NCBI GenBank assembly: GCA_000720995.1
Contig: JOEL01000001.1
Coordinates: forward strand, 1-64,000
Origin: Streptomyces celluloflavus
GTDB taxonomy: Bacteria > Actinomycetota > Actinomycetes > Streptomycetales > Streptomycetaceae
Length of the DNA stretch: 64,000 nucleotides
Direction: 5' to 3'
The notes under the pieces were generated by a model. It ran no database searches. It was not told the origin of the DNA and saw only the letters and a list, made by a program, of their open reading frames with translations. This document shows positions 42,708 through 50,508 of the stretch, in pieces (positions within the stretch are counted from its first letter, which is position 1; each line of letters opens with the position of its first letter). The position numbers and the translations under genes are program-made.

Positions 42708-43919
42708 TCAGCTGTTTGACGAGAGGGCGCTGTATTTCTGCCACCGGGACCAGTCGACCGCCCAGTCGCCGATCCCGTTGTTCCGGTCGGCCTCGCCGCG
42801 CACGGAGGAGCCGGTGACCTCGAACGGGTCACCGACCTGGACCTTGCCGTACAGCCAGTCCGCGTCCGCGTCGGTCAGGCCGATGCAGCCGGCGCTGGCG
42901 TTGACCCGGCCGACCTTGTCCGCGTTCCAGGGCGCGGCGTGCGCGTACGTCCCGGAGTCGGTGAGCTTCATCGCGTCCCGGACCGTCCGGTGGTAACTGT
43001 CGCCCAGCCCCACGGTCTCGGAGTTCATATCGATGGTGCCCTCCTTCGCCATCAGCGGGAAGGTGCCCGTCCAGGTGGCATGGTCGCCGTCCGGTCTGCC
43101 CGCCGAGACGGGAATCCTTCTGGTCTCCTCGCCGTCCTCGACGAACGACAGGTACCTGCGGTCCAGGTCGACCTTGATCACCTGGCTGCGGCCGATGGTG
43201 AAGTGGAGATCGTAGTCCTTGCCGAAGTAGCGGCCGCCGCCGGAGTCCACGCCGTTCAGCTCGGCCCGGAGGCCGACCTCGGTGCCCGGCTTCCAGTACG
43301 TCTCGGGCCGCCAGTCGACGCGGTCCTTGCCGGAGTAGTCCTTGACCCAGCCCCACGATCCGGTCGTGCCGTTGTCGGTGGTGACCTTCAGCCGGCGTTC
43401 GACCGCGGCCCGGTCGGTCACCGGGAAGTCGAAGGTGATCATGATGGGCTGGGCGACGCCGACCGTGGCGCCCTGCGAGCCGGGGCTCAGCACCAGCTTG
43501 TTGAGCAGGTCCGCGGCGGCCGTGGTCAGCGACTCCTTGGCCTCGCCGGTGCCGCCCTGGGCGTTCTTCGTCCGGGCGAGGACGGAGTACTTGGTGTCCG
43601 GCGCGGTCTTCGCCCGGGACGTCCAGACGGTGCCGCCGGCCCCGAGGGTGCCGGCCAGCTGCCGGCCCTTGGGGTCGGCCACCGTCACCTCGGTGAGGAC
43701 CCCGCCGTGCGCCGTGACCTTCAGCCGGTCGCCGGCCTGCACCGTACGGGTGCCGCTCGCCGCTCCCAGGTCCACCTGCACCGGGGGGCCCTTGGGCGCC
43801 GATGCCGCGATCCCGCCGCACGCGGTGAGCGCACCGACGCTGACCAACGGCATCAGGGCCAGCGCGACATACCGCGACCGGACACGCCGGAACGGGCGGG
43901 CAGAGGGGGGCTGACGCAT
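42708..43919 (-). CDS. L,D-transpeptidase lipoprotein (YkuD)
   Basis: The 403-residue product has a lipoprotein signal with GALTACGG lipobox, two Ig-like domains (about 45-270; VQVDLGAASGTRTVQAGD, PIMITFDFPVTDRAAVE) and a C-terminal YkuD domain (about 275-395) with active-site TYAHAAPWN and ASAGCIGLT, where Cys is the nucleophile. It forms 3-3 peptidoglycan crosslinks. The ATG is chosen because the preceding in-frame 33 residues are not signal-like. Its position immediately upstream of lysX suggests a shared envelope-stress transcript. Confidence 0.92.
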   Translation of the reverse strand: MRQPPSARPFRRVRSRYVALALMPLVSVGALTACGGIAASAPKGPPVQVDLGAASGTRTVQAGDRLKVTAHGGVLTEVTVADPKGRQLAGTLGAGGTVWTSRAKTAPDTKYSVLARTKNAQGGTGEAKESLTTAAADLLNKLVLSPGSQGATVGVAQPIMITFDFPVTDRAAVERRLKVTTDNGTTGSWGWVKDYSGKDRVDWRPETYWKPGTEVGLRAELNGVDSGGGRYFGKDYDLHFTIGRSQVIKVDLDRRYLSFVEDGEETRRIPVSAGRPDGDHATWTGTFPLMAKEGTIDMNSETVGLGDSYHRTVRDAMKLTDSGTYAHAAPWNADKVGRVNASAGCIGLTDADADWLYGKVQVGDPFEVTGSSVRGEADRNNGIGDWAVDWSRWQKYSALSSNS

Positions 43920-44056
43920 GGAGGGGGCTTTCCGTCGGCGACGCGAGAGGCGTGGGGCGATGTCGGTCGCTAAGACGGTTGATCCCGGACTCCCGTTGCG
44001 GGGGGTGACGTGATACACGCCACGTTGTGCCGGGGGCGCCGGGAATGCCGGGGGCG

Positions 44057-44815
44057 CTACGGAAGGGCCGCCAGGGAGGCGAGCAGCAGCGCCGAGCAGA
44101 GCACTTCGAGCGCGCCGACCACCCCGACGCGCACCCCGCGGGCGGGCAGTGTCACGGCCCGTACGAAGAAGAGCGTGAAGACCGGCGCCAGCCAGGGGTC
44201 CATCGTGGTCGCGACGACGACCGCGACACCGTGATAAACGGCCGAGGCGACGCGATAGGGACGGCTCGCACGCTCCCGGATCATGGTTTTCACATAGAGA
44301 ATCGTGCCGGTGAAATACAGCAGACAGGCCACCGTGGCCGTCCAGACCGTGGAATCCAGCGCACCGCTTCCCAACCGGTAGGAAACGAGCAGCATGCCGC
44401 AGGCGGGGATCACCGCGACAATTCCGTTGAGCAGTGAACGTTCATTATTGCGGTACGCGTGGAACATATTGACCGCGAAGAACGGCACCGCGCACAGGGC
44501 CGCGACCAGCAGCCAGGGCCGGCCGGCGGCGAGCGGTGCGCCGAGCGCCGCACACGCCGCGCCGAAACCGGCCAGCGGCGCGAGATGGCGGCGCGGCGCC
44601 CGCGGATTACGGGACAGCCGGCGCAGCCGGACGTACTGCTGGGCGTGGTGGGCCGTGCCGTACGCGAGCAGCCAGACGGGCAGCAGCAGCGCGTGCCGGG
44701 CGGTGAATCCGCCCAGCAGGCCACCCGCCAGGAACGGTACGACGAGCATGGCCCAGGCGCCGTGCTGCTGGGGTATCCAGCGGCGGAGGGCGCGCCGCGC
44801 CGGCGAGATGGTCAT
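44057..44815 (-). CDS. YwiC-like membrane protein
   Basis: The 252-residue polytopic protein starts with the family hallmark RRWIPQQHGAWAMLVVPF and contains about seven hydrophobic segments. The last third includes VKTMIRERASRPYRVASAVYHG. Function unknown; in Bacillus subtilis ywiC lies in the narK-fnr-narGHJI anaerobic nitrate region. Here it is divergent from a radical SAM gene and may use a leaderless start, since a TATATT -10 ends 7 bases before the ATG. Confidence 0.82.
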   Translation of the reverse strand: MTISPARRALRRWIPQQHGAWAMLVVPFLAGGLLGGFTARHALLLPVWLLAYGTAHHAQQYVRLRRLSRNPRAPRRHLAPLAGFGAACAALGAPLAAGRPWLLVAALCAVPFFAVNMFHAYRNNERSLLNGIVAVIPACGMLLVSYRLGSGALDSTVWTATVACLLYFTGTILYVKTMIRERASRPYRVASAVYHGVAVVVATTMDPWLAPVFTLFFVRAVTLPARGVRVGVVGALEVLCSALLLASLAALP

Positions 44816-44822
44816 GCCCCCG

Positions 44823-44828
44823 AATATA
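44823..44828 (-). promoter_or_regulatory. Probable -10 of the YwiC-like gene
   Basis: TATATT on the minus strand, 7 bases before the ATG at 44815, so transcription would begin at or next to the start codon. The corresponding -35 (ATTTTT) is poor, as in activator-dependent promoters. Confidence 0.5.
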
Positions 44829-44850
44829 GACCGGACGATAAGAGAAAAAA

Positions 44851-44885
44851 TAAGTCCGAAAGACCCGGACCTAAGTCCCGGAAAT
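44851..44885. promoter_or_regulatory. DevR/OsdR-like boxes in the divergent promoter
   Basis: CCCGGACCTAAGTCCCGG (44864-44881) fits the DevR core GGGAC-N4-GTCCC with one mismatch (CGGAC-CTAA-GTCCC). A half-site TAAGTCCGAAA starts at 44851, exactly 21 bases from TAAGTCCCGGAAA at 44872, two helical turns. A second symmetric element, CCCGG-AAAT-CCGGG, lies at 44877-44890. Relative to the likely YwiC start the sites centre near -41 and -58, typical of DevR-type activation. Confidence 0.5.
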
Positions 44886-44983
44886 CCGGGGCGATATACC
44901 CGGTGAAGGGCGCCGGTGACGCAATTTCGGCGGCGTACAGTGCGAATGTTCCGAATTGCCGCAGCGACCTGTGGAGCCGTTTC

Positions 44984-46168
44984 GTGCCGAATAACCGCCT
45001 GGTCCGCCGCCCCCGCCACGACGTCGCCGAACGGCCCTTCATCGTCATCTGGGAGGCCACCCGGGCCTGCCCGCTGGCCTGCGCGCACTGCCGGGCCGAG
45101 GCGCAGACCGCCCGGCACCCCGGCGAACTCGGCACCGCGGACGCCCGCGCCGTCATGGACCAGATCGCCGCCTTCGGGCGCCCGAGCCCACTCTTCGTGA
45201 TCACCGGAGGCGACCCGTTCCAGCGCCCCGACCTGAACGAACTCGTGCGGTACGGAACGGGGTTGGGGCTGCGCGTCGCCGTCTCGCCGTCCGGCACCCC
45301 CACCCTCACCCGCGACCGCCTCGCCGCGGTCCGGGACGCCGGCGCGATCGCCCTCTCGCTCAGCCTCGACGGTTCCACCGCCGCACTGCACGACAGCTTC
45401 CGCGGCGTCCCGGGCGTCTACGGCTGGACCCTGGACGCCTGGCGGACCGCCCGCGAACTCGGCCTCAAGGTGCAGATCAACACCACCGTCACCCGCCACA
45501 ACCTCACCGACCTGGCCGATGTCGTCCGGCTGGTGCGCGACGAGGGCGCGATGCTGTGGAGCGCCTTCCTCCTCGTCCCCACCGGCCGCGGGCAGCAGCT
45601 CGCCGCGCTGTGCGCCACCGAGGTCGAGGACGTCCTGAACTTCGTCCACGACGCGGGCGCGGTGATCGCCGCCAAGACCACCGAGGGGCACCACTTCCGC
45701 CGGGTCGCCCTCCAGCGGGCCGTCCTGGACACCCTCGGTGAGGACCCGGCAGCCACCCTCGGGCTCGGCGGTCTCTACCGTCTGCTCACGGACCGGGCGG
45801 CGGAGCTGGGGCTGGACGCCGGCCGGGTACGGCGCCCGCCGATGGACGTCGGCTCCGGCCGCGGCTTCGTCTTCATCTCGCACACCGGCACCGTGCACCC
45901 CAGCGGCTTCCTGCCGCTGGACGCGGGCAACGTCAAGGACCGCCCACTCACCGAGATCTACCGCACCTCCGCGCTCTTCACGGCGCTGCGCGACCCGGCG
46001 CGACTCGGCGGCGCCTGCGGCGCCTGCGAGTTCCGCACCGTCTGCGGCGGCTCCCGGTCGCGCGCCTATGGCATCACCGGCGACCCGCTCGCCGCCGACC
46101 CGTGGTGCTCCTACCGGCCGGGCAGCTTCCCGCACCAGGACCGGCTGGCCGAGCTGCTCCCCACCTGA
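44984..46168 (+). CDS. Radical SAM/SPASM protein, TIGR04053-like
   Basis: The 394-residue protein has radical SAM Cys motif CPLACAHC within FIVIWEATRACPLACAHCRA, GGDPF and SLSLDGS in the barrel. A C-terminal SPASM region holds CGACEFRTVC followed by DPWC, ligands for an auxiliary iron-sulfur cluster. It resembles the haem-related branch (NirJ/AhbD relatives, TIGR04053). The GTG start is chosen for GGAG seven bases upstream. It is followed 56 bases later by a HemY/CgoX-like oxidase. Likely acts on a porphyrin side chain or on a peptide; porphyrin is favoured by context. Confidence 0.85.
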   Translation: MPNNRLVRRPRHDVAERPFIVIWEATRACPLACAHCRAEAQTARHPGELGTADARAVMDQIAAFGRPSPLFVITGGDPFQRPDLNELVRYGTGLGLRVAVSPSGTPTLTRDRLAAVRDAGAIALSLSLDGSTAALHDSFRGVPGVYGWTLDAWRTARELGLKVQINTTVTRHNLTDLADVVRLVRDEGAMLWSAFLLVPTGRGQQLAALCATEVEDVLNFVHDAGAVIAAKTTEGHHFRRVALQRAVLDTLGEDPAATLGLGGLYRLLTDRAAELGLDAGRVRRPPMDVGSGRGFVFISHTGTVHPSGFLPLDAGNVKDRPLTEIYRTSALFTALRDPARLGGACGACEFRTVCGGSRSRAYGITGDPLAADPWCSYRPGSFPHQDRLAELLPT

Positions 46169-46224
46169 GACGCGCCCCCGTCCGGTCATCCGTCCTCCGC
46201 ATCCCCCCTTGTCAGGAGCGCACT

Positions 46225-47688
46225 GTGAGCACCACGCCCGGTATACCGAAGACCGCCGCCACCCCGCGCCCGCCCCGGCACGCCGTGGTGATCGGCGGCG
46301 GGATCGCCGGCCTGGCCGCCGCCTGGCAGCTGCGCGAAACGGCCCCGGACGCGCTCCGCGTCACCGTCCTGGAGAGCGCGGACCGCGTCGGCGGCAAACT
46401 CTCCACCCGGACCCTCGCCGGCACCGTCCTCGACGACGGCTGCGAGTCGATGATGTCGCTGCGCCCCGAGGTGGTGCGGCTGGCCGAGGCGGTCGGCCTC
46501 GGCGGCGAGCTGCTGCCGCCCGCCGCCGCGCCCACCACCGTCTGGACCCGCGGCGCGCTGCGCGCCCTGCCGCCGGGCCATGTCATGGGCGTACCGACCG
46601 ACCCCGACGCGCTGGCCGCGACCGGACTGCTCTCCGCCGCCGGCGTCGACCGGCTCCGGCGGGAGCCCGCGCTGCCGGCCGTGCCCGTGGTGGGCGACAT
46701 CACCGTCGGCCGCTATCTCACCGACCGGCTCGGCCCGGAGACCGTCGACCGGATCGTCGAACCGCTGCTCGGCGGCATCTACGCCGGCCGCACCGAACTG
46801 CTCTCACTCGAAGCGGTGATGCCCCGGCTCCTGCCGTTCGCCCGCCGCGGTACCTCCCTCCTCGACGGGCTGCGCGCCGCCCGGCGGGACGCCCCGCAGG
46901 GCCCGCCGCCGCAGGTCGTCACCGGTCTGCGCGGCGGTGTGGGCCGGCTGCCCGCCGCCGTCGCCGCGTCCCTGGCCGGCAGCCGCGACGCGGAGATCCG
47001 CACCGGCACCCGCGTCGTCTCCCTGTGGCGCAGCGACCGGGGCTGGCACATCCTCGCCGAGACCGGTCAGGGCCCACTGGAACTCATCGCCGACGCCGTG
47101 GTGCTGGCACTGCCCGCGCACCCCGCCGGCCGGCTGCTCGCCCCGCACGCGCCCGCCGTGGCCGGTGAACTGTCCGGCTACGGCTACGCCGCCACCGCCG
47201 TCGTCACCCTCGCCTTCGACCGGCGTACGCTGCCCGCCGTCCCGCGCGGCAACGGCTTCCTCGTCCCGCCCGTCGACGGCCGCACCGTCAAGGCCGCCAC
47301 CTTCACCAGCAACAAATGGAGTGCGGTGGCCGAGGCCGATCCGGGCACCTTCCACCTGCGCACCTCCATCGGCCGGTTCGGGGCGGCCGAGGACCTGGCG
47401 CGGTCCGACGACGAACTGGTCCGCCGCTCGCTGGCCGACCTGGGCGACGCGCTCGGCGGCCCGCTCGGCGATCCGTCCGACGCCGCCGTCACCCACTGGC
47501 CCGACGGGCTGCCGCAGTACACCGTCGGCCACCAGGAGCGCGTCGCCCGCATCCGGTCCGGGATGGCGCACCTCCCCGGCCTGGCCGTCTGCGGTGCCGC
47601 GTACGACGGAGTCGGGGTCGCGGCGTGCGTCGCGAGCGGGCAGCGGGCGGCGGCCGAGGTCCTGACGGCGGTCGACGCGGGCCGGTGA
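46225..47688 (+). CDS. hemY: HemY/CgoX-type (copro)porphyrinogen oxidase
   Basis: The 487-residue FAD enzyme has N-terminal VVIGGGIAGLAAAWQL and VLESADRVGGKLST, middle RIVEPLLGGIYAGRTELLSLEA (very typical of the HemY/PPOX family) and C-terminal LPGLAVCGAAYDGVGVAACVASG. In actinobacteria such enzymes oxidise coproporphyrinogen III in the coproporphyrin-dependent haem route (the older name hemG is often used). GTG follows AGGAG. A hemQ/chdC decarboxylase does not follow, suggesting this may be a second, specialised copy. Confidence 0.87.
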   Translation: MSTTPGIPKTAATPRPPRHAVVIGGGIAGLAAAWQLRETAPDALRVTVLESADRVGGKLSTRTLAGTVLDDGCESMMSLRPEVVRLAEAVGLGGELLPPAAAPTTVWTRGALRALPPGHVMGVPTDPDALAATGLLSAAGVDRLRREPALPAVPVVGDITVGRYLTDRLGPETVDRIVEPLLGGIYAGRTELLSLEAVMPRLLPFARRGTSLLDGLRAARRDAPQGPPPQVVTGLRGGVGRLPAAVAASLAGSRDAEIRTGTRVVSLWRSDRGWHILAETGQGPLELIADAVVLALPAHPAGRLLAPHAPAVAGELSGYGYAATAVVTLAFDRRTLPAVPRGNGFLVPPVDGRTVKAATFTSNKWSAVAEADPGTFHLRTSIGRFGAAEDLARSDDELVRRSLADLGDALGGPLGDPSDAAVTHWPDGLPQYTVGHQERVARIRSGMAHLPGLAVCGAAYDGVGVAACVASGQRAAAEVLTAVDAGR

Positions 47689-47765
47689 CCCGCAGTGATC
47701 ACCTGATCGGAGTACCCGGAGTCGAACCGCATATACCGCGAAATACGCCAAACTGGCCGCCCCCT

Positions 47766-47783
47766 GCCGCCTGATCAGGCGGC
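47766..47783. promoter_or_regulatory. 18-bp perfect palindrome before the small membrane protein
   Basis: GCCGCCTGATCAGGCGGC ends 16 bases before the ATG at 47800, directly adjoining the GAGGAGG ribosome site. Further TGATCA/CTGATC copies occur at 47696-47710. It may be a hemY terminator, an operator, or an RNA hairpin tuning translation of the next two genes. Confidence 0.45.
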
Positions 47784-47799
47784 GTCGAGGAGGTGTGCC

Positions 47800-47994
47800 A
47801 TGGTGATCTCCCTCTCGGTCATCCTCTTGCTGGTGATCTTGACTGTCATTTTCCTGCGCGGCGGAAAGCTCAAGCTCTCGCACGCCCTGGTCTGCGTGCT
47901 GCTCGGCTTCTACCTCGCGAGCAGCAGCTTCGCACCGGACATCCACAACGGTCTGGGCAGTGTCGCGGATGCGGTGAGCAGCGTGCGCCCGTGA
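47800..47994 (+). CDS. 64-residue single-TM or double-TM membrane protein
   Basis: The sequence starts MVISLSVILLLVILTVIFLR, a TM helix, then a short basic loop GGKLKLS and a second hydrophobic stretch HALVCVLLGFYLASSSFAP. The tail DIHNGLGSVADAVSSV is amphipathic. Strong ribosome site GAGGAGGTGTGCC. Its stop overlaps the GTG of the NarK-like gene (GTGA), so the two are translated together. Family not recognised with certainty; it may be an accessory or assembly subunit of the transporter. Confidence 0.75.
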   Translation: MVISLSVILLLVILTVIFLRGGKLKLSHALVCVLLGFYLASSSFAPDIHNGLGSVADAVSSVRP

Positions 47995-49202
47995 CCCTGT
48001 CGGCCTTCCGGAACCTCCTGCTCGCCACCATCGGTTTCGCCGTGACCTTCTGGGCGTGGAACCTCATCTCCCCGCTCGGCAACGACTTCCGGACCAGCCT
48101 GGGCCTGACCCACTTCGAGGAGTCGGCGCTGGTGGCCGTGCCGGTACTGGTCGGCTCGCTGGGCCGGGTGCCGGTCGGCGCGCTCACCGACCGCTACGGC
48201 GCCCGGGTGATGTTCCCGCTGATCTCCGCGCTCACCGTCATCCCCGTGCTGCTGCTCATCCCCGCCAAGTCCTACCCCGCGCTGCTCGTCGTCGGATTCC
48301 TGCTCGGCCTGGGCGGCACCACGTTCGCCATCGGCATCCCGCTCGTCAACGGCTGGTTCCCGCCCGGTAAACGCGGTCTGGCGCTGGGCGTCTTCGGTAT
48401 GGGCATGGGTGGCGTCGCCCTCTCCGGCTATCTGACCCCGCGCATCCACCGGTACGACGAGAACCTCCCGTACCTCGTCGTCGCCATCGTGCTGGCCGCC
48501 TACGCGGTGTGCGCCGCGCTGCTGATCAACGACAACCCGGACCGGCCGGTCCCGCAGTCCTCCCTCGGCACCCGGCTGGGCCAGGCCGGCCGGCTCCGGG
48601 TCACCTGGGAACTGGCCGCGCTGTACGCGATCGGCTTCGGCGGCATCGTCGCGTTCGGCGTCTATCTGCCGACGTACCTGGAGAACGCCTACCACCTGGA
48701 CACCACCGACGCGGGCACCAAAACGGCCGGATTCGCGGTGGTCGCCGTCATCTTCCGGCCCATCGGCGGCTGGCTCTCGGACCGGGTGCACCCGGCGGTG
48801 GTCACCGCCTGGGCGTTCGGCGGGGTCGCGGTGCTCGCCGTCGTCCAGGCATTCGGACCGGCGCTGAACCCCACCGGAACGATCGCCTTGCTGCTCATGG
48901 CGGCCGGCCTGGGCGCTTCCAGCGGCTCGGTCTTCGCGCTGGTCTCGCGGGTGACGCCGCAGGCCCAGGTCGGCAGCGTCACCGGCATCGTCGGCGCCAT
49001 CGGCGGCCTCGGCGGCTTCGTACCGCCGCTCCTGATGGGAGCGGTCTACAGCGGTACGGGGTCCTACTCCATCGGCCTCATGCTGCTCTCCGACCTCGCC
49101 CTGGCCGGCTGTGTCTACGCCGCCGGCCGGATGCGCACCGTGGGCACCACCCCCATCGACACCACCGCCCCCACCCGCACCGGCGGTGCCTTCCCCGCAT
49201 GA
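47991..49202 (+). CDS. NarK-like MFS nitrate/nitrite transporter
   Basis: The 403-residue 12-TM major facilitator starts ATIGFAVTFWAWNLISPLGNDF as in actinobacterial NarK. TM4-5 carry the glycine-rich stretch GFLLGLGGTTFAIGIPLVNG then WFPPGKRGLALGVFGMGMGG, a nitrate/nitrite porter (NNP) signature, and RPIGGWLSDRVHP near 260 is the repeat-2 loop. Probably exchanges or imports nitrate and nitrite. Coupled translation with the small membrane protein; same strand as the radical SAM and HemY genes. Confidence 0.85.
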   Translation: MTLSAFRNLLLATIGFAVTFWAWNLISPLGNDFRTSLGLTHFEESALVAVPVLVGSLGRVPVGALTDRYGARVMFPLISALTVIPVLLLIPAKSYPALLVVGFLLGLGGTTFAIGIPLVNGWFPPGKRGLALGVFGMGMGGVALSGYLTPRIHRYDENLPYLVVAIVLAAYAVCAALLINDNPDRPVPQSSLGTRLGQAGRLRVTWELAALYAIGFGGIVAFGVYLPTYLENAYHLDTTDAGTKTAGFAVVAVIFRPIGGWLSDRVHPAVVTAWAFGGVAVLAVVQAFGPALNPTGTIALLLMAAGLGASSGSVFALVSRVTPQAQVGSVTGIVGAIGGLGGFVPPLLMGAVYSGTGSYSIGLMLLSDLALAGCVYAAGRMRTVGTTPIDTTAPTRTGGAFPA

Positions 49203-49260: not shown

Positions 49261-50508
49261 TCAGGAGGACCGCGAGGAGAAGACCCCGATGCCGTTCGCG
49301 ACCGGCCGCTCCGCACCGCCCGACGGATGGTTGCGCACCGTCACCTGCCGGCTGTCCGGGTCGCGGGTGACCAGCGTGGCCGACCCGCCGCCGTCCAGAT
49401 CGACCGCCTCCCGCGCGCCCAACTCGCCCATCAGAAGGGCCAGTTCGCGCACCGTAAGACCGGCCTGACCGGCCGCCCCGTCCAACGAGAGCAGATAGAG
49501 CACCCGGCCGCCGGGCCCGAACCCGGCCGCGGTGCGCACCGCGACGGCGTCCGTGTCGAGACCGTCCACCGGCCGCGCGTCCCGCAGGACCGGGAAACCG
49601 CCGATCGCGAACCGCAGCGGACCGGCCCCCCGGCTCACGAGGCGGTGGCCGACCCCGACCGGATCGCCCGGACGTAGCCTGCGCAGTTGCCGGGCCCCCT
49701 CCTCCCGGCCCACCAGCACCACGCTCCCCGCGGCGACCCCGCCGCCGCCCGGCCGCTGTGCGAGCGCCGTCACCCGGCCGTGCCGGACGGTCACCTCGGC
49801 GGTCTCCGTACTGCACGGCGCCGCCCGGTCGGTGTCCGTACCGCAGGTGGCGCGCACCCGCGAGGCGGGGCCCCACCGTTCGGTGTACGCGCCGATGCCG
49901 TTCACCGGCAGCGCGAAGAGATTGAGCCCGCGCAGTGGCAGCGGCCCCCGGGCGGTCAGCACCGCACCGCGCAGCGTGAGCCGGTCGAGCCGCGCCCGGC
50001 GGTCGTAGCCGACACCGATGACGTCCTCGGTGGACGCGCCCGGCGGCAGGGCCGGGCCGAACCGCTGCCCGTCGGGCACCGCGCTCTTGAGCACCCGCCC
50101 GGCGGCGATCTCCGGTCCGTCCGGGGCGCCGGTCACCTCCACACCGGGGTGCTGGACCTCGACGATATGGAAGAAGTCTCCGTTGACGGCGCCCACCGCG
50201 CCCTGCGCGGCGGCCAGGCGGGACACCGGCGCCCGCGCGCCGACCACCCCCGGATGGAGCAGATCCACCGTGACCCGCGGATCGGCCAGATCGACCGTCA
50301 GCAGATGGCCGAGCACCGTGCCGCGCGGCACCGTCAGCCGGAATTCGCCGTACGTCACACCGGGCGCCACCGGCACCGCGGCCGCCCGGCGCAAGGTCTC
50401 GCCCGCGGCGGTGGCCGGTGCCCCGCCCGCCAGCGCGCCGCCGGCCAGCACCCCCCACGCCACCAGAACTGTCAGCACCGCGCGAACCCGGCCGAATCGC
50501 TGCCTCAC
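49261..50508 (-). CDS. Exported phosphodiester glycosidase (NAGPA domain)
   Basis: The 415-residue product has an N-terminal signal (VLTVLVAWGVLAGGALAGG). The C-terminal NAGPA-type domain has VGAVNGDFFHI, IGVGYDRRARL and the hallmark AVDLDGGGSATLV, ending GVFSS. The family uncovers phosphodiester-linked N-acetylglucosamine and in bacteria works on envelope or exopolysaccharide phosphodiesters. GTG start four bases after AGGGGG. Single gene, convergent with narK without a clear hairpin between. Confidence 0.87.
   Translation of the reverse strand: MRQRFGRVRAVLTVLVAWGVLAGGALAGGAPATAAGETLRRAAAVPVAPGVTYGEFRLTVPRGTVLGHLLTVDLADPRVTVDLLHPGVVGARAPVSRLAAAQGAVGAVNGDFFHIVEVQHPGVEVTGAPDGPEIAAGRVLKSAVPDGQRFGPALPPGASTEDVIGVGYDRRARLDRLTLRGAVLTARGPLPLRGLNLFALPVNGIGAYTERWGPASRVRATCGTDTDRAAPCSTETAEVTVRHGRVTALAQRPGGGGVAAGSVVLVGREEGARQLRRLRPGDPVGVGHRLVSRGAGPLRFAIGGFPVLRDARPVDGLDTDAVAVRTAAGFGPGGRVLYLLSLDGAAGQAGLTVRELALLMGELGAREAVDLDGGGSATLVTRDPDSRQVTVRNHPSGGAERPVANGIGVFSSRSS

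Follow-up and report, generated by a model that had tools for sequence, protein, structure and literature searches.

A candidate haem-supply gene module linked to nitrate respiration in Streptomyces celluloflavus

Streptomycetes reportedly fail to grow without oxygen, yet Streptomyces coelicolor has three nitrate reductases, a situation called the 'anaerobic paradox' (PMC5069765, in the text available). Two enzymes are among the nearest known counterparts of what we describe here: ChdC (HemQ), which is H2O2-dependent, and AhbD (TIGR04545), which belongs to the siroheme-dependent pathway; they are structurally unlike (PMC10965808). S. coelicolor cgoX complements Staphylococcus aureus partly in air and not anaerobically, and the accessible part of that report, with S. 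coelicolor CgoX failing anaerobically, calls for the last steps of actinobacterial haem synthesis to be studied (PMC6620371). We analysed the first 64 kb of contig 1 (the window) of the Streptomyces celluloflavus genome (8.68 Mb, 193 contigs), in which positions 44057-49202 carry a TIGR04053 radical S-adenosylmethionine (SAM)/SPASM protein, a second HemY/CgoX-family oxidase (HemY2) and three further genes. With a probability of about 0.72, we read this module as the half that supplies haem to a nitrate-respiration system induced by hypoxia, with TIGR04053 standing in for the peroxide-dependent HemQ.

An anaerobic haem role has been described for ahbD of Haloferax volcanii (HVO_2144), a gene in the neighbourhood of nirK, blue-copper and norB genes. 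Its deletion strongly slowed anaerobic growth by denitrification or dimethyl sulfoxide (DMSO) respiration and left aerobic growth unaffected, while haem restored growth on DMSO and, with DMSO added, partly restored denitrifying growth (PMC5746218, excerpted text). A review, in its available section and citing Dailey 2015, reports ahbD colocalised with hemY/hemH/hemQ sets (PMC10548856), and to that extent the haem-operon context was known before. Among the papers listed in literature searches, no title or abstract opening described the present gene set, and TIGR04053 by name had no match, with most subscription journals outside the search.

A preliminary description made from the sequence alone had placed five genes in this region, and all five were confirmed as open frames at the coordinates given. 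The features are as follows (aa, amino acids; nt, nucleotides).

44057..44815, minus strand: YwiC-like membrane protein, 252 aa, ATG at 44815; PF14256, 111 bits (cut-off 25); probable UbiA fold.
44866..44879, no strand assigned: predicted DevR/OsdR-like hypoxia box CGGACCTAAGTCCC in the divergent ywiC-TIGR04053 promoter; inner dyad GGAC-N4-GTCC at 44867-44878.
44984..46168, plus strand: TIGR04053 radical SAM/SPASM protein, 394 aa, GTG start at 44984; 484 bits (cut-off 395), 366/366 positions.
46225..47688, plus strand: HemY2, second HemY/CgoX-family oxidase, 487 aa, GTG start at 46225; TIGR00562, 201 bits (cut-off 98).
47766..47783, no strand assigned: perfect 18-bp palindrome GCCGCCTGATCAGGCGGC, 16 nt upstream of the 64-aa gene.
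47800..47994, plus strand: 64-aa membrane-like protein, ATG start at 47800; no Pfam or NCBIfam match.
47991..49202, plus strand: NarK-like major facilitator superfamily (MFS) transporter, 403 aa, GTG start at 47991; MFS_1, 146 bits.

The ywiC and TIGR04053 genes diverge across a gap of 168 nt. Downstream, 56 nt separate the radical SAM gene from hemY2 and 111 nt separate hemY2 from the 64-aa gene, which overlaps the NarK-like gene by 4 nt. All five frames and the catalytic cysteines are intact.

We examined how these genes are distributed in 150 Streptomyces genomes, 21 of which had TIGR04053 over its cut-off, and compared about 20 kb around TIGR04053 in the other 20 of these and in one genome from a phylum search (21 loci), using gene calls from a simple in-house caller. 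narG was present in 20 of the 21 loci and the whole of narGHJI in 18; the L064 stretch lacked narG, which in L060 and L065 was present only at a distance. The loci fell into three layouts. Type A (14 loci) reads TIGR04053> copper-nitrite-reductase-like> 148-aa>; 11 of these stretches contain all of narGHJI, running divergently from TIGR04053, and nitroreductase (13), NarK-like (9) and hemerythrin (8) genes are frequent neighbours. Type B (five loci) reads ywiC< narGHJI> TIGR04053> hemY>, and type C (two loci) hemY< narK< narIJHG< TIGR04053>. A second sample, the best 80 of 145 relatives from named genomes, comprised 29 Streptomyces and 51 non-Streptomyces loci and shared at least two genomes with the first (L118 = G423:C4; L149 = G392:C1); L188 and L190 derive from one metagenome-assembled genome (MAG). 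All 29 of its Streptomyces loci had narG within 9 kb, 27 had whole narGHJI, 17 HemY and 16 YwiC; 16 had the type-B order, and every one of the 16 YwiC loci had both narGHJI and HemY.

The same partners co-occurred across whole genomes by Fisher tests, which ignore shared ancestry: narG, found in 51 of the 150, was in 21/21 TIGR04053-positive genomes versus 30/129 others (p 5e-12); a second HemY, found in 14, in 10/21 versus 4/129 (p 2e-7); and YwiC above 100 bits in 10/21 versus 0/129 (p 3e-10), lying away from TIGR04053 in 4 of the 10. The YwiC count excludes 17 genomes with weak matches of 22-27 bits, 5 of which exceeded the cut-off of 25. Nine HemY candidates were scored per genome, so the second-HemY counts are lower bounds; in 14 of the 150 genomes HemY was not found. 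The core gene association is thus far above chance. The window resembles type B minus narGHJI, plus a NarK-like gene, and the conservation of the cluster, which had been posed as a test of the preliminary description, therefore held for a core that recurs with narGHJI as its usual partner and not for the exact five-gene layout, which we found in no other locus examined.

In type A, the product adjoining TIGR04053 (L058:6475-9162 and relatives) is 885-895 aa long; it has a cupredoxin match, and its C-terminal part resembles copper nitrite reductase, with a match of 159 bits, under the cut-off of 296.

The window's own genome has narG and a further hemY at other sites. It has one strong TIGR04053, one strong YwiC and two HemY over cut-off, namely the window copy and C13:147689, which lies directly beside the only HemQ (C13:146949); a second hemY next to hemQ was what the preliminary description had proposed to look for. 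Two narG genes exceeded the cut-off (C23:21706 and C12:175193), neither of them near the window locus. The C23 NarG is nearest type B, with 73.8-75.2% identity to all 21 type-B proteins and at most 69.3% to all others listed. Together with the conserved nar association, the second hemY beside hemQ supports, at its core, the earlier suggestion that the five genes act together in haem and nitrate handling.

HemY2 is a member of the HemY family, like CgoX, and its best Protein Data Bank matches are protoporphyrinogen oxidases, but it forms its own, mostly nar-linked clade. In a maximum-likelihood tree of 59 HemY proteins, the window copy grouped with 21 type-B copies and one copy from genome G382 (100/100), away from the housekeeping clade and on a long branch (0.58). 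The type-C HemY (L211 and L212, with L202) fell near the housekeeping clade and apart from HemY2, indicating two separate recruitments of HemY. Four further paralogs (L197, L198, L201, L210) had no nar or haem marker nearby, and genome G395 carries a HemQ-linked HemY (L200) and a distant long-branch one (L215). DUF1444, which we take to be the CgoN (YtpQ) family, matched 0 of the 150 Streptomyces genomes, which sets the present system apart from CgoN; with S. coelicolor cgoX also failing anaerobically, an additional HemY would have a function to fill.

The promoter between ywiC and TIGR04053 points to a common switch. CGGACCTAAGTCCC matched a DevR-like palindrome at 13 of 14 positions and was the top match in the 64-kb window, within a gap that makes up 0.26% of it; the palindrome was drawn partly from the mycobacterial DevR box, after the type-B promoters had been viewed, which weakens this window statistic and leaves the shared place of the box unaffected. 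A matrix built solely from 16 type-B sites (with the aligned L131 site in place of an overlapping top-scoring one) returned the same top window match, at 16.3 versus 11.4 for the next. The box lies 51 nt from the ywiC start, and L118 and L122 carry GGGACCTAAGTCCC at 58, a similar place. GGGACC-W3-GTCCC-like palindromes occupy the ywiC-narG gaps of the 16 named type-B loci, and in 11 of the 16 the best match in the gap was unmatched elsewhere in the locus. In the C23 nar operon, a perfect GGGACCAAAGTCCC precedes narG by about 100 nt (L108:8046-8059) and is the best match in that 19.5-kb stretch. With this kind of box common to both, the window module and the C23 type-B nar operon resemble a single regulon divided between two loci. 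A GGGACC-N3-GGCCC form occurred in 7 of the 10 type-A and type-C gaps scanned (of 11 listed; L134 was excluded). No box was found near narG in the C12 nar stretch, and none above chance-like scores in the housekeeping hemY-hemQ stretch. Neither the simple dyad GGACNNNNGTCC (6 matches versus 3.7 expected) nor GGACCTAAGTCC with up to two mismatches (5 versus 3.3; one exact, inside the gap) was enriched in the window.

S. coelicolor OsdR is the counterpart of mycobacterial DevR, with a predicted site AGGGACCTTCGGCCCC before narG2 (PMC5069765, available portion). As a promoter motif, the published OsdR consensus RGGGCCGNNCGGCCCY was ruled out by a scan; only the DevR-like GGGAC-type palindrome fits.

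The radical SAM protein has CX3CX2C at residues 29-36 and an auxiliary CX2CX5CX20C at 345-375, and the cysteines of both motifs are invariant in 28 aligned sequences. It therefore has the cysteine pattern of AhbD (CX3CX2C plus CX2CX5CX20-21C), whose auxiliary spacing is that published for the related NirJ (PMC10548856, in the section available). AhbD haem b synthase was also the next-best family, at 309 bits, whereas the NirJ (haem d1) model TIGR04051 gave 162 bits (cut-off 515). A named-genome search with the window protein returned only Streptomyces among its top 26 matches (70-76% identity). One other Streptomyces TIGR04053-like protein (L100:8414-9622, 310 bits) adjoins a D-aminopeptidase gene; its match begins at profile position 31, and the CX3CX2C stretch lies outside the called frame.

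Haem genes recur around TIGR04053 beyond Streptomyces. A haem-pathway marker was present in 25 of the 51 named non-Streptomyces loci, and the ten of the 51 that we scored (nine haem-marked and one from Cellulomonas without a marker) all exceeded the TIGR04053 cut-off, at 426-510 bits, with AhbD second. An actinobacterial locus reads hemE-hemH-hemY-hemQ-TIGR04053 (L088), and hemH-hemQ-TIGR04053 was found in 5 of 7 Actinomyces loci. In L078 and L080, hemY lies just upstream of TIGR04053, and in L082 TIGR04053 and hemE-hemH diverge, hemY is close by and HemQ was not found in the genome (94% complete). Two MAGs (L169, L172) read norCB-hemE-hemH-TIGR04053-hemY, with TIGR04053 in the place of hemQ and no local HemQ. 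TIGR04053 adjoins hemY in Chloroflexota and Myxococcota, and Verrucomicrobiota have TIGR04053-ahbC in ten loci (two from one MAG); at L095, the sole locus so checked by model, AhbC was the best family at 473 bits, under its cut-off of 650. In a phylum-wide draw, TIGR04053 exceeded its cut-off in 32 of 346 genomes, and 28 of the 32 also had a HemQ match (one weak) among the matches listed, indicating that TIGR04053 usually accompanies HemQ and does not replace it. HemY was absent from 4 of 8 genomes checked for it.

Other neighbourhoods concern denitrification. On a Thermus plasmid, TIGR04053 lies between an annotated nitrite reductase, which it adjoins, and a cytochrome c gene. Like the window, this Thermus denitrification island (nirSJM, nor, YwiC) has TIGR04053 and a YwiC-like gene within 6 kb of each other, with a nitrite reductase and, by our reading of the annotation, an NO reductase (norCB); unlike it, the stretch has a cd1-type nitrite reductase and no hemY match. 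On a Haloferax larsenii plasmid, TIGR04053 adjoins a halocyanin gene and genes that we read as norB and nirK, and on a Natronorubrum plasmid it adjoins nosZ. The Deinococcus ficus copy lies near sirohaem-type and nitrite/sulfite reductase genes instead. The H. larsenii protein, which sits in a gene order matching that of HVO_2144, scored as TIGR04053 at 502 bits, and H. volcanii appeared in the TIGR04053 control search at E <=1e-80; by synteny and elimination, HVO_2144 is probably the H. volcanii TIGR04053 match.

A TIGR04053 gene (product 42% identical) also lies beside a mobA-like gene on a 2.9-kb record whose label names a plasmid of Campylobacter jejuni (L116, NZ_CP029056.1); this is odd for such a host and perhaps a contamination.

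From context and homology, TIGR04053 would be the oxygen-independent coproheme decarboxylase of coproporphyrin-pathway Actinomycetota. With ChdC it would share substrate and product, and it takes the operon place of ChdC in the two MAGs above; it would differ in not depending on H2O2, and HemQ is encoded elsewhere in the window's genome. With AhbD it shares both cysteine motifs, a haloarchaeal denitrification neighbourhood and an anaerobic haem role, but the Streptomyces enzyme would draw on the coproporphyrin pathway (HemY-HemH) and coexists with HemQ. The suggestion that the radical SAM enzyme substitutes for an oxygen- or peroxide-dependent haem step fits the haem-operon contexts and, as far as the excerpted report goes, the anaerobic-only defect of the H. 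volcanii ahbD mutant (PMC5746218).

Under low oxygen, we propose, a DevR/OsdR-type regulator would turn on narGHJI elsewhere in the genome and, through the matching box, the divergent ywiC and TIGR04053-hemY2 transcripts. HemY2 would convert coproporphyrinogen III to coproporphyrin III, its electrons presumably passing to an acceptor other than O2, and the housekeeping ferrochelatase would insert iron. TIGR04053 would then cleave SAM and turn two propionates of Fe-coproporphyrin III into vinyls, yielding haem b without H2O2. This haem b would serve NarI and other haem proteins, and the NarK-like protein would carry nitrate or nitrite.

Several observations weigh against this reading, beside the ancestry ignored by the Fisher tests, the way in which the palindrome was drawn and the unmatched layout of the window. 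narGHJI is absent from the window and so does not lie between ywiC and TIGR04053 as it does in type B, and hemY occurred in 0 of the 14 type-A stretches. The AhbD score of the window protein is below the cut-off of 500 for that family. By the queries used, 26 of the 51 non-Streptomyces loci (Cellulomonas, for example) had no haem marker, 4 of these 26 having nar or NirK-like matches. Genome G382, which matched neither TIGR04053 nor narG, has a HemY2-clade gene (L199). In G415, also without TIGR04053, a second HemY, type-C-like, lies within a few kb of narI (L202), so that in G415 HemY was recruited to nar independently of TIGR04053. HemY-type CgoX uses O2 in vitro, and its oxygen-free use here is an assumption. 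Finally, the published OsdR consensus, with up to three mismatches, gave 132 window matches versus 134 expected and none in the ywiC-TIGR04053 gap.

The absence of narGHJI from the window, its unique layout among the loci examined and the long HemY2 branch would also be expected of a decaying remnant, from which nar has been lost and in which the remaining genes are under relaxed selection or in other use, with HemY2 a redundant oxidase. We regard this as improbable, because the frames and catalytic cysteines are all intact, the genome holds a type-B nar operon with the same kind of box, and the window box is kept at a similar place to that in relatives. The nearest solved relatives of TIGR04053 are PqqE and SkfB, nar enzymes require the molybdenum cofactor and, in one 2.9-kb record, TIGR04053 stands next to a gene annotated as molybdenum cofactor guanylyltransferase, so that the protein could be a SPASM maturase modifying a peptide (the 64-aa product, for instance) or an assembly factor for another nitrate reductase cofactor such as the molybdenum cofactor. 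This seems quite improbable to us: the membrane-like 64-aa protein contains a single Cys and lacks conservation, haem genes are repeatedly found near members of the family (no search for moa genes was made in the loci), and haem rescued the H. volcanii ahbD mutant (PMC5746218, in excerpt). Least probable of the three is that TIGR04053 acts in haem d1 synthesis as an enzyme of the NirJ type, a role suggested by the Thermus gene between annotated nitrite reductase and cytochrome c genes and by the name NirJ (haem d synthesis) for the middle gene of Thermus nirSJM (PMC7694296, in the part available), which we equate with TIGR04053 by our reading of gene order, since NirJ-type models gave at most 190 bits against cut-offs of at least 500 and below the 309 of AhbD, Streptomyces type-A loci carry a copper NirK-like enzyme (counting loci only, NirS was found in 0 of 80 named loci and NirK in 0 of 16 type-B loci), and TIGR04053 is found inside haem b operons.

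If TIGR04053 does complete haem b in an oxygen-independent manner, it fills a known gap in Gram-positive haem synthesis without air, and both missing haem steps have candidates here, in a genus amenable to genetic work. The bacterium is a soil member of a group thought to need air, and the module probably completes haem without oxygen for a nitrate-breathing enzyme. We put forward only tentatively, and hold to be rather doubtful, the larger scheme of a complete oxygen-independent coproporphyrin branch in Actinomycetota, in which HemY2 would be an anaerobic CgoX, TIGR04053 the decarboxylase and YwiC the link that brings HemY2 electrons (perhaps through menaquinone) to nitrate reductase, under a DevR/OsdR-type switch, with haem made both by and for nitrate respiration.

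The orphan family YwiC would gain a probable fold and pathway. Its AlphaFold2 model has a pLDDT (predicted local distance difference test) of 91, and the nearest solved folds are UbiA-family prenyltransferases. The UbiA superfamily is marked by two Asp-rich Mg-diphosphate motifs, and a 16-sequence YwiC alignment had neither these two motifs nor any invariant or near-invariant Asp. The model and alignment suggest that YwiC is a UbiA-like protein and not a normal prenyltransferase.

The transporter was upheld in part. It is an MFS protein, 56-60% identical to the transporters of other nar clusters, but against the NarK family (TIGR00886) it scored 190 bits, short of the cut-off of 312, so the NarK label rests partly on that identity. 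The 64-aa protein was not borne out as a conserved member of the module, with one weak match (L075) across 47 loci. The palindrome GCCGCCTGATCAGGCGGC is possibly an operator for a second transcript carrying the 64-aa and NarK-like genes.

The genes on either side of the module look unrelated to it.

42708-44018, minus strand: flanking YkuD L,D-transpeptidase.
49261-50508, minus strand: flanking NAGPA phosphodiester glycosidase.

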